A stretch of 58,066 nucleotides of DNA. It comes from Gammaproteobacteria bacterium (GTDB lineage: Bacteria; Pseudomonadota; Gammaproteobacteria; JACCYU01). The stretch is from positions 1-58,066 of the forward strand of contig JACCZW010000087.1 in NCBI GenBank assembly GCA_013695765.1, in the 5' to 3' direction. The notes below the pieces were generated by a model. It was not told where the DNA came from and did not search any database. It saw only the letters and a program-made list of their open reading frames with translations. The stretch's first letter is position 1, and each line of letters begins with the position of its first letter. Shown piece after piece: positions 12,253-16,384 of this stretch. Position numbers and translations under genes: made by a program.

Positions 12253-12507
12253 ATGTCGAGTCACCCATTGACGGTTAGCGACTGGTTCAGGCTCAAGGCA
12301 TATATTCAGCAAGATCTGGCAGGCGTTACCGAGGCCGATCTCGCCTCCTGCGACGGCCAGCGTGAAAAGCTGGTGACGAAGCTGCAGGAGATTTACGGGA
12401 TCACGGCCGATGAAGCCGAAGGCGCGGTGGCGTACTACGAACAGCGGATCGCGATGTGGTATCGCTCGCGGCTGACCGGGTCGGCGTCGCTGAAGTCACG
12501 TCACTAG
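12253..12507 (+). CDS. CsbD-like general stress protein
   Basis: An 84-residue hydrophilic protein. The start is ATG 12253, six bases after a perfect AGGAGG Shine-Dalgarno; the frame is open further upstream only by chance. The core, from FRLKAYIQQDLAGVTEADL through GQREKLVTKLQEIYGITADEA, follows the CsbD pattern: an amphipathic helix pair, then repeated K/R-E positions and a YGI turn. Known members are small proteins induced in stationary phase or by general stress; biochemical function is unknown. The C-terminus YEQRIAMWYRSRL is longer than usual. It lies just upstream of the small-RNA candidate. Confidence 0.72.
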   Translation: MSSHPLTVSDWFRLKAYIQQDLAGVTEADLASCDGQREKLVTKLQEIYGITADEAEGAVAYYEQRIAMWYRSRLTGSASLKSRH

Positions 12508-12688
12508 ACGCGACGCAGGTTATACGCGCGGCACCTGCGGGTCAGCCAGGTCACGATACCGGGCCAATGACGCAAATTTGTCAGCGGCACGCGTGGGAAC
12601 CGCGAGGTACCGTTGAGCATACCGGCGACTACATCTGACGCAGTTAACAGTTGATAAAATTATTTTTCCCCCGGACGCGTTTTCGTTA

Positions 12689-12694
12689 TATACT
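12689..12694 (+). promoter_or_regulatory. Putative -10 box of the small-RNA candidate
   Basis: TATACT lies in the context GTTATATACTGC, about seven bases before the presumed transcript start. No good -35 is seen at 17-18 bases upstream (TTTCCC-like), so transcription may need an activator or an alternative sigma factor. Confidence 0.4.
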
Positions 12695-12700
12695 GCTTTC

Positions 12701-12839
12701 ATTCGGAAAACGACAATTTTTAGAGGTTTCAAATAGCGCGATGCGTTAATGTTCATTCTCCCATTGCGGGCTCTTTTTGAGCCTGAACCGTTTGATCGCC
12801 TCCTCTTCCCCTCCCCACTTGATCGAACGGTTTTTTTTT
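12701..12839 (+). ncRNA. Candidate small regulatory RNA with C/U-rich anti-Shine-Dalgarno loop
   Basis: This roughly 140-base transcript is predicted from a -10 box at 12689 and a strong terminator. It contains no ORF of note: the only ATG near an AGAGG gives two codons. Two hairpins close it. Hairpin 1 (12768-12786) pairs CGGGCTC with GAGCCTG around a T5 loop. Hairpin 2 (12786-12832) pairs AACCGTTTGATC with GATCGAACGGTT, with one G-U pair. Its 23-base loop is almost pure pyrimidine and contains CCTCCTCTTCCCCTCCCC, complementary to Shine-Dalgarno sequences. This layout resembles trans-acting sRNAs that expose CCUCC-type loops. An mRNA leader is less likely because a separate promoter precedes the next gene. 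Confidence 0.6.
12786..12839 (+). terminator. Rho-independent terminator of the small-RNA candidate
   Basis: A 12-bp stem (12786-12797 with 12821-12832, one G-U pair) ends in a run of nine Ts at 12831-12839. It is the clearest intrinsic terminator in the window. The unusually long pyrimidine loop is discussed with the RNA. Confidence 0.85.
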
Positions 12840-12944
12840 GCGCGTCTTCCAGCAATCTGGCCAGTGTATGGAATGGATCATGGAGCTAGATCAAAATGCA
12901 TCTGACTCACTGGCGACATTGGCCGATTGGCCGTCAACATCGAA

Positions 12945-12979: not shown

Positions 12980-13234
12980 ATGCGATATAGATCAGACCAC
13001 GCACGCGACGCGCTGGAATAGGCCGTGGAACGCGCCTCGGATGCCGGACGGCGGCTGAAAGAACTGGGTACTGTCATCGAAGAGCGCGCCTCCGACACGG
13101 CGCGCAGCACGCGCCGCATGTCTGAGGATTACACCGGCCGCCTGCGTGACCGAGTGGTGGACTACCCGCTGGCGTCGATCGGCGTCGCGGTGGTGGTGGG
13201 CGCGTTTATCTCGGTCCTGTTGGCCCGGCGTTAG
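12980..13234 (+). pseudogene. DUF883/ElaB-like membrane-anchored protein interrupted by an in-frame amber codon
   Basis: The frame from ATG 12980 (CGGAG Shine-Dalgarno ten bases upstream) would give an 84-codon ElaB/YqjD-type protein. It has an acidic/basic helical body with repeats such as VERASDAGRRLKELG and RSTRRMSEDYTGRLRDRV, then one C-terminal helix (SIGVAVVVGAFISVLLARR). This is the usual architecture of DUF883 proteins, which bind ribosomes and anchor to the inner membrane in stationary phase. Codon 14 is TAG (13019-13021), in frame, most simply from CAG or GAG. Re-initiation at GTG 13025 would yield 69 residues, nearly the whole domain, so a functional product is possible. No Shine-Dalgarno precedes that GTG. 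Confidence 0.7.
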
Positions 13235-14962: not shown

Positions 14963-14983
14963 GTTCTGTAGTCGCATCCGGTG

Positions 14984-16384
14984 TCAATCCGCCTGTTCGT
15001 CACCCGTTAGTGCGTAACGCTGCCGCGCCACATGAAACTGTTGCGCGTGATCCATCATCGGTGACGGATAACCGTGAAGTACCGGCGGACGCGCCTTGTG
15101 CAGTTGATGAATGGCCTTAGGTTCCAGCTCCCTCAGCTCCGGCACCCAGCGCTTGACATATTCCGCCTGGCTGTCGAATTTCTGCTGCTGCGTCCAAGGG
15201 TTGAGAATGCGGATGGGACGGGTGTCCACCCCAACCGAGGCGATCCACTGCCAGTTGCCGTTATTCACGCAGGGATCGTAATCGACCAGTTGACGCGCAA
15301 AATAGCGCTCGCCCCAGCGCCAGTCGATGAGCAGATTTTTGGTCAGGAAGGAGCCGGTGACCAGCCGCGCGCGATTGTGCATCCAGCCGGTCTCGTTTAG
15401 CTGGCGCATCCCCGCGTCGACCATGGGAAAGCCGGTGCGCCCTTCGCACCAGGCGTTGAAATGACTTTCATCGTTGTCCCATTGCATGCCTTCAAACCTG
15501 GTTTTCAGCGACTTGCCGAAAACCGACGGATTGAAGAAAGCCAACTGTGTGAAGAAGTCCCGCCAGTAGAGTTGACGGATAATCTCCTCGCAGGACGCCC
15601 CCAGTTTCTTCTTCAGCGCGTGATAAACCTCGCGGATCGAGACGGTACCGAACTTGTGGTGCGCCGACAGGCTGGTAGTACCGGCTTGCGCGACCGCATC
15701 GTGCGAGTGGCCGTAGTCGTTGAACTCGCCGAGCTGCCGCAGAATCGCCAACCCGTTATCGCGTCCGCCGCGCACGTGCGCACGCTCGTTGCGCTTCGTG
15801 AGCAGCTCGTCATAAAGGTCTACGCTGCGCGCGAATTCAATCTGACCATCATAAAAGTCGCTGACCTTGAGCGTCTGCGGCGGCGGCACGTCGATCTGGC
15901 TGGCACGCCGGTAATACGGCGTAAACACCCTGAACGGTGTGCCCGCTTCAGTCAACGCGCGGCCGGGTTCGTTGAGTAGCAGGTCCGGATATTGACCGAA
16001 AAAAACACGCCGCCGTGCGCACAACGCTTGCAGTTCGCCATCCCGCAACCGGCTGAATGGCGTGTAGTCGCGGTTGACTAAGACCGCCTCGGCGCCGCAC
16101 TGCTCGATCAGGCGCTCAACGATTTCGTGGGGCAAGCCTGAGAACCGGTAGAGCGTGCCCCCGGCTGCCTTCAGTTGCCGCTCCAGGTCTTCAAGCGACT
16201 CGATCAGAAACTGAAAGCCGTGCGCGGTGAAGTAATCGTTCTTGTCGTGCTGCTGGCGCGGATCGAAGATGAAACACGGCAGTACGTGCTCGGCCAGCGC
16301 GAACGCCTTACGCAGACCCGTGTTGTCGCTTAGCCGCAGATCGCGCCGGAATAGAAAAACCACGGTCTTATAAGGCTTTGTCAT
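14984..16384 (-). CDS. phrB: Deoxyribodipyrimidine photolyase, class I
   Basis: A 466-residue flavoprotein that repairs cyclobutane pyrimidine dimers with blue light. The N-terminal antenna-binding Rossmann domain starts VVFLFRRDLRLSDNTGL. The FAD domain shows FPMVDAGMRQLNETGWMHNR, then RWGERYFARQLVDYDP and NNGNWQWIASVGVD, followed by RILNPWTQQQKFD. All are hallmarks of class I photolyases; the Asn-rich NNGNWQW loop and intact Trp positions argue for repair rather than a signalling cryptochrome. The C-terminus has KWVPEL-type RWVPELREL and a GYPSPMMDH end. It is monocistronic and converges with the SDR gene. Confidence 0.94.
   Translation of the reverse strand: MTKPYKTVVFLFRRDLRLSDNTGLRKAFALAEHVLPCFIFDPRQQHDKNDYFTAHGFQFLIESLEDLERQLKAAGGTLYRFSGLPHEIVERLIEQCGAEAVLVNRDYTPFSRLRDGELQALCARRRVFFGQYPDLLLNEPGRALTEAGTPFRVFTPYYRRASQIDVPPPQTLKVSDFYDGQIEFARSVDLYDELLTKRNERAHVRGGRDNGLAILRQLGEFNDYGHSHDAVAQAGTTSLSAHHKFGTVSIREVYHALKKKLGASCEEIIRQLYWRDFFTQLAFFNPSVFGKSLKTRFEGMQWDNDESHFNAWCEGRTGFPMVDAGMRQLNETGWMHNRARLVTGSFLTKNLLIDWRWGERYFARQLVDYDPCVNNGNWQWIASVGVDTRPIRILNPWTQQQKFDSQAEYVKRWVPELRELEPKAIHQLHKARPPVLHGYPSPMMDHAQQFHVARQRYALTGDEQAD

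Follow-up and report, generated by a model that had tools for sequence, protein, structure and literature searches.

What occupies the 470-base gap that separates a CsbD-like ORF (12253-12507, + strand) from a DUF883-like ORF (12980-13234, + strand) in this gammaproteobacterial genome? The genome (G000) comprises 3.13 Mb in 164 contigs, and the window, meaning the whole 58,066-nucleotide stretch analysed, is its contig C87. An earlier note had placed a candidate small RNA here, resembling trans-acting sRNAs, in a region said to hold no ORF and to lie between two stress-protein genes. We read 12700-12839, inside the gap, as an independent sRNA gene whose C-rich loop is presented by a 13-bp terminator and would pair with mRNAs to repress them, with a probability of about 0.68. 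The flanking genes only partly fit the earlier description: the DUF883-like ORF is a genuine DUF883_C match (Pfam), whereas the CsbD-like match is sub-threshold (17.9 bits vs a cut-off of 40). The DUF883-like ORF contains an in-frame TAG at 13019-13021 (+), read as CAG in the sister species; this reflects a recent nonsense mutation or else a mistake in the assembly. Likewise, mechanically called ORFs do overlap the locus (e.g. 12749-12889 on the + strand and 12520-12855 on the - strand), but their frames are disrupted relative to the sister species by 1-nt indels (positions 12707 and 12831), so they are unlikely to be conserved proteins.

Three genomes are named in the comparisons: G001, the sister species and sole same-genus genome; G002, a family-mate (78% complete); and G016, from another order. 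The host's own order is represented by three genomes only among those compared. The features of the locus are as follows.

About 12640-12660, + strand: 20-base block CAGTTAACAGTTGATAAAA, 20/20 identical to G001
12689-12694, + strand: -10-like box TATACT, read from the sequence, 6/6 bases identical in G001
12700-12839, + strand: candidate sRNA transcript, ~140 nt, fold z -3.0, homologues in G001 and G016
12735-12747, + strand: 5' hairpin AGCGC-GAT-GCGTT, from the fold
12768-12784, + strand: hairpin 1, GGGCTC-TTTTT-GAGCCT, 6 bp with loop TTTTT, from the fold
12786-12832, + strand: hairpin 2, the intrinsic terminator stem, 13 bp, from the fold
12799-12819, + strand: C-rich terminator loop CCTCCTCTTCCCCTCCCCACT, the proposed mRNA-pairing site, identical in G001
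12831-12839, + strand: T9 tail of the terminator, read from the sequence, T8 in G001

The two consecutive hairpins followed by nine Ts are thus where the earlier note had seen them, and none of 200 shuffles of 12700-12839 folds as stably (z = -3.0). The 12-bp stem and 23-base loop that the note gave for hairpin 2 are obtained when the closing G.U is omitted; otherwise the count is 13 pairs and 21 nt. The loop, described as pyrimidine, falls short of this by a single A (95% pyrimidine, 67% C). In hairpin 1, a seventh outer pair (C12767-G12785) is possible only in the host genome. The -10 box, announced about 100 bases upstream, is TATACT, ~75 bases 5' of hairpin 1 and 92 bases 5' of hairpin 2; it has no good -35 partner and is absent from the sites listed by the sigma-70 scan. 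The 5' end of the RNA is put near 12700 because of the position of this box. Further upstream, the conserved block CAGTTAACAGTTGATAAAA is a possible activator or UP site. Transcribed as an independent unit, the RNA would form three hairpins, a short one near its 5' end, a small one serving as spacer and a strong one acting as intrinsic terminator, and the 21-nt C-rich loop would be kept single-stranded atop the 13-bp stem.

How unusual such a loop is was assessed by applying one fixed rule to a 0.94-Mb sample of the host genome, which returned 59 terminator-like hairpins. Hairpin 2 has the highest pyrimidine fraction among loops of at least 10 bases (0.95 vs 0.70 for the runner-up) and the longest stem among the matches listed (14 pairs including an outer G.T), and it is the single C-rich-loop terminator of this kind in the sample. 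Across the class, a pattern for a C-rich loop followed by a T run (TTCCCCTCCCCN{3,30}TTTTTT) is present in 6 of 369 genomes: three hold the homologues described here (G000, G001 and G016), one holds an anti-hemB-type RNA (L127), and in the remaining two no terminator hairpin is formed. An exact search for the loop in named genomes returned two records, from a planctomycete and from Labedella. In other families, terminators with C-rich loops were also observed 3' of a clpB-like gene in G083 (CUUCCCCCUCCCCCUU, L024 1501-1545) and in G133 (CCCCCACCCCCC, L021 1501-1545). Their 5' parts fail to align with the candidate, and both were rejected as homologues and considered independent; loops of this type may have evolved on terminators on several occasions.

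The sister species carries the RNA at the same position, with 91% identity and with both stems and the loop unchanged. Only 2 of 85 columns differ across 12755-12839 (97.6% identical), namely the position separating the two hairpins and a single T in the tail, compared to 77% identity in the non-coding flanks, an excess conservation of the 3' half that is highly significant (binomial P ~7e-8). The first 55 nt are 83.6% identical, barely above the flanks, and 12540-12599 is 60-75% identical. No copy was seen in the 78%-complete G002.

The earlier note had suggested a covariance search for the two hairpins in related genomes, together with a check of stem covariation and loop conservation. A model (R1) built from the host and G001 sequences and searched against the 369 class genomes gave one convincing new match, in another order (G016 C5:18061-18204, E 2e-5); an improved model returned no additional convincing member, and the sRNA was seen in these three genomes only. 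Other candidates were set aside: short matches near chance level for 369 genomes (L005, L006, L007, L008 and L009, of which L007 and L009 additionally resemble coding sequence) and weak model matches within long ORFs (L017, L019, L020, L022, L025, L028 and L029).

In G016 the terminator stem is AACCGGCUUCCGAA/UUCGGAAGCCGGUU and the loop CUUCUCCUUCCCCUCCCCCCCA. Nine of the 13 stem pairs differ from the host, seven on both sides and two on one side, and none is broken; the loop stretch CTTCCCCTCCCC is unchanged and the core CUUCCCCUCCCC is identical. When the stem pairs were scored, 100% of cells were paired, compared to 16-55% for slid partners, and none of 500 shuffles matched it. Thus, judged from the alignment, the stems covary while the loop is kept, a result that supports the structure and stops short of proof since the three aligned sequences amount effectively to two lineages and were fitted to the structure. 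The resemblance also extends beyond the terminator. Hairpin 1 is replaced by a different 5-bp hairpin, and the 5' hairpin region shares TCAAAxAGCGCxxTGCGTTA with the host; only 1 of 2000 shuffles aligns as well as the 5' parts do with loop and terminator removed, which argues for common descent of the two RNAs rather than for two similar terminators. Altogether, conservation in G001 and G016 and covariation sustain the idea of a trans-acting sRNA as far as sequence allows, and very likely the sRNA gene is real and evolutionarily conserved. As a separate observation, Rfam gives faint signals for ar14 / CcsR1 of alphaproteobacteria (CCUCCUCCC), far under gathering scores, 300 bases from the G016 homologue (L016 1964-2068, - strand).

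Known families do not account for the RNA. Rfam models gave no match up to E = 10, one meaningless match excepted, and the covariance models of anti-hemB (RF02837), ErsA (RF01719) and sX13 (RF02232) gave none. These are polA-engB sRNAs, and in the host polA and engB lie on contig C117, where an anti-hemB-like sRNA with two C-rich loops (CCCUCCCU and AUUUCCCCAAG) sits between them (L117 15169-15291). Its match to RF02837 covers L117 15191-15289, with E 2e-7 and 36.3 bits, under the gathering score of 49.5. With no Rfam match and a separate copy at polA-engB of the same genome, we rejected the candidate as a polA-engB sRNA; this host therefore has two C-rich-loop RNAs, apparently unrelated to each other, and the pair is available for comparison. 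Two weak hits in other genomes initially passed for homologues, which would have made the candidate a polA-engB sRNA, but fell to the same Rfam assignment and were rejected. One lies downstream of polA (L018 1502-1636 in G299; anti-hemB-type, 51.3 bits, above the gathering score) and the other is convergent with engB (L127 1400-1539 in G247; anti-hemB-type, 33.9 bits, below it); L127 scores below gathering despite a clear layout, so Rfam may have drawn its model too narrowly. In its 5' half, L018 shows a weak alignment to the window RNA (24 of 2000 shuffles are equally good), so a very remote kinship is conceivable.

Could the locus instead be no more than the place where transcription of the CsbD-like gene ends after a long 3' UTR, which perhaps yields a 3'-UTR-derived sRNA? 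In the scan, nothing from the CsbD-like stop (12507) to hairpin 2 makes a convincing terminator, as such a UTR would have it, but the conserved -10 box and upstream block intervene, and an ordinary terminator has no need of a 21-nt C-rich loop kept during stem turnover. Moreover, no CsbD-like gene precedes the homologue in G016, which adjoins suf genes and whose nearest upstream gene is a sufR-like regulator on the opposite strand. We therefore consider a UTR origin unlikely. A same-strand terminator 140 bases 5' of the DUF883-like gene could also point to a cis-acting leader or attenuator of that gene; however, a TATAAT box 25-30 bases 5' of the gene is conserved along with its RBS region, so the gene is probably driven by its own promoter, and in G016 the next large downstream gene is unrelated to it and on the opposite strand, making a leader very improbable. 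Neither host neighbour is kept at the G016 locus, so the stress-gene neighbourhood gives no clue to function.

A further possibility concerns the loop, which might be a protein-binding site (e.g. for an RNA chaperone or a Rho-like factor) or a decoy, and not an mRNA-pairing seed. Several proteins bind pyrimidine tracts, which favours this, and complementary sites are not in excess in target prediction: among 1135 predicted gene starts, 12 genes reach <= -22 kcal/mol in leader duplexes vs 11 for the reversed loop, and the genome-wide complement sites number 24 vs 24 for the control (8 vs 7 at -30 kcal/mol). The lack of excess is expected if Shine-Dalgarno-like targets are short, yet gives no support to pairing. 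Against a protein site, the characterised sRNAs with such loops that were considered here, RepG and sX13, pair with G-rich mRNA (PMC8295292, PMC3771888), and we hold this alternative to be quite unlikely. By this same analogy, the window RNA is most likely a trans-acting sRNA whose loop pairs with G-rich or Shine-Dalgarno sequences and would block translation.

Two sites gave strong predicted pairing with the loop. The leader of an mraZ-like gene (L100 556, GUGGGAGGAAGUGGGGAGAAGUGGG) pairs at -26.7 kcal/mol; its GUGGGAGGAAGUGGGGAGAAGUGGG repeats are presumably MraZ's own binding boxes, so we treat it as no more than a lead. The G-rich stretch TGGGGAGGGAAGAGGGGC (L117 15036-15054), ~130-150 bases 5' of the polA-engB RNA, could pair with almost all of the loop, leaving a single bulge (-32.9 kcal/mol). 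Over 1.4 Mb it ranks in the top three by strength, the sRNA gene itself excepted, but the control loop's best sites there are equally strong, and we keep it as a lead only. The stretch lies between a TTGACA-like box and a terminator-like hairpin (L117 14943-15095), an arrangement that possibly specifies a G-rich RNA or sponge; the candidate transcript folds no better than shuffles. A three-part circuit, in which the window and polA-engB sRNAs would share targets and the G-rich transcript (L117 ~14978-15095) would sponge both, is a long shot. Separately, the motif GGGGAGGGCYAGGGTGGG recurs at C2:12 and C17:24694 in G000 and on C93 and C234 in G001, near GGGGGAG-containing complement-like stretches, and resembles a small dispersed repeat family.

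How does this RNA compare with known regulators? The CcsR / cuckoo RNAs (CCUCCUCCC motif, RF02791 and relatives) likewise have a conserved anti-Shine-Dalgarno-like motif, but the window loop is CCUCCUCUUCCCC, not CCUCCUCCC, without an Rfam match, and the window RNA is single copy in its genome; no DUF1127 gene was found among the neighbours checked with Pfam. The U-rich tail is compatible with Hfq or ProQ as a putative chaperone; a search of about half of the genome turned up no hfq, which does not imply its absence from the genome. The polA-engB sRNAs (anti-hemB, ErsA, sX13) also have hairpins displaying C-rich loops, but they carry the main CCUCCC loop on the first hairpin, whereas the window RNA has its long C-rich loop on the terminator. 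The closest mechanistic parallel is RepG, from Helicobacter, a member of another phylum. In Helicobacter pylori, the C/U-rich terminator loop of RepG pairs with G-rich mRNA leaders and its second stem-loop is sufficient by itself (PMC8295292), and in Xanthomonas sX13 uses its C-rich loops to target G-rich motifs in mRNAs independently of Hfq (PMC3771888). The fold of the window RNA also bears a C/U-rich loop atop a terminator stem; the comparison with RepG is one of mechanism and not of sequence, and the window RNA, unlike RepG, has no known G-repeat target. Being likely a C-rich terminator-loop regulator, the window RNA is a new family, absent from Rfam, of a kind already known in other bacteria. 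It joins a set of widely scattered C-rich-loop regulators as an uncatalogued member, and its terminator stem, rewritten around a fixed loop core, illustrates cleanly which parts of such RNAs selection acts on.
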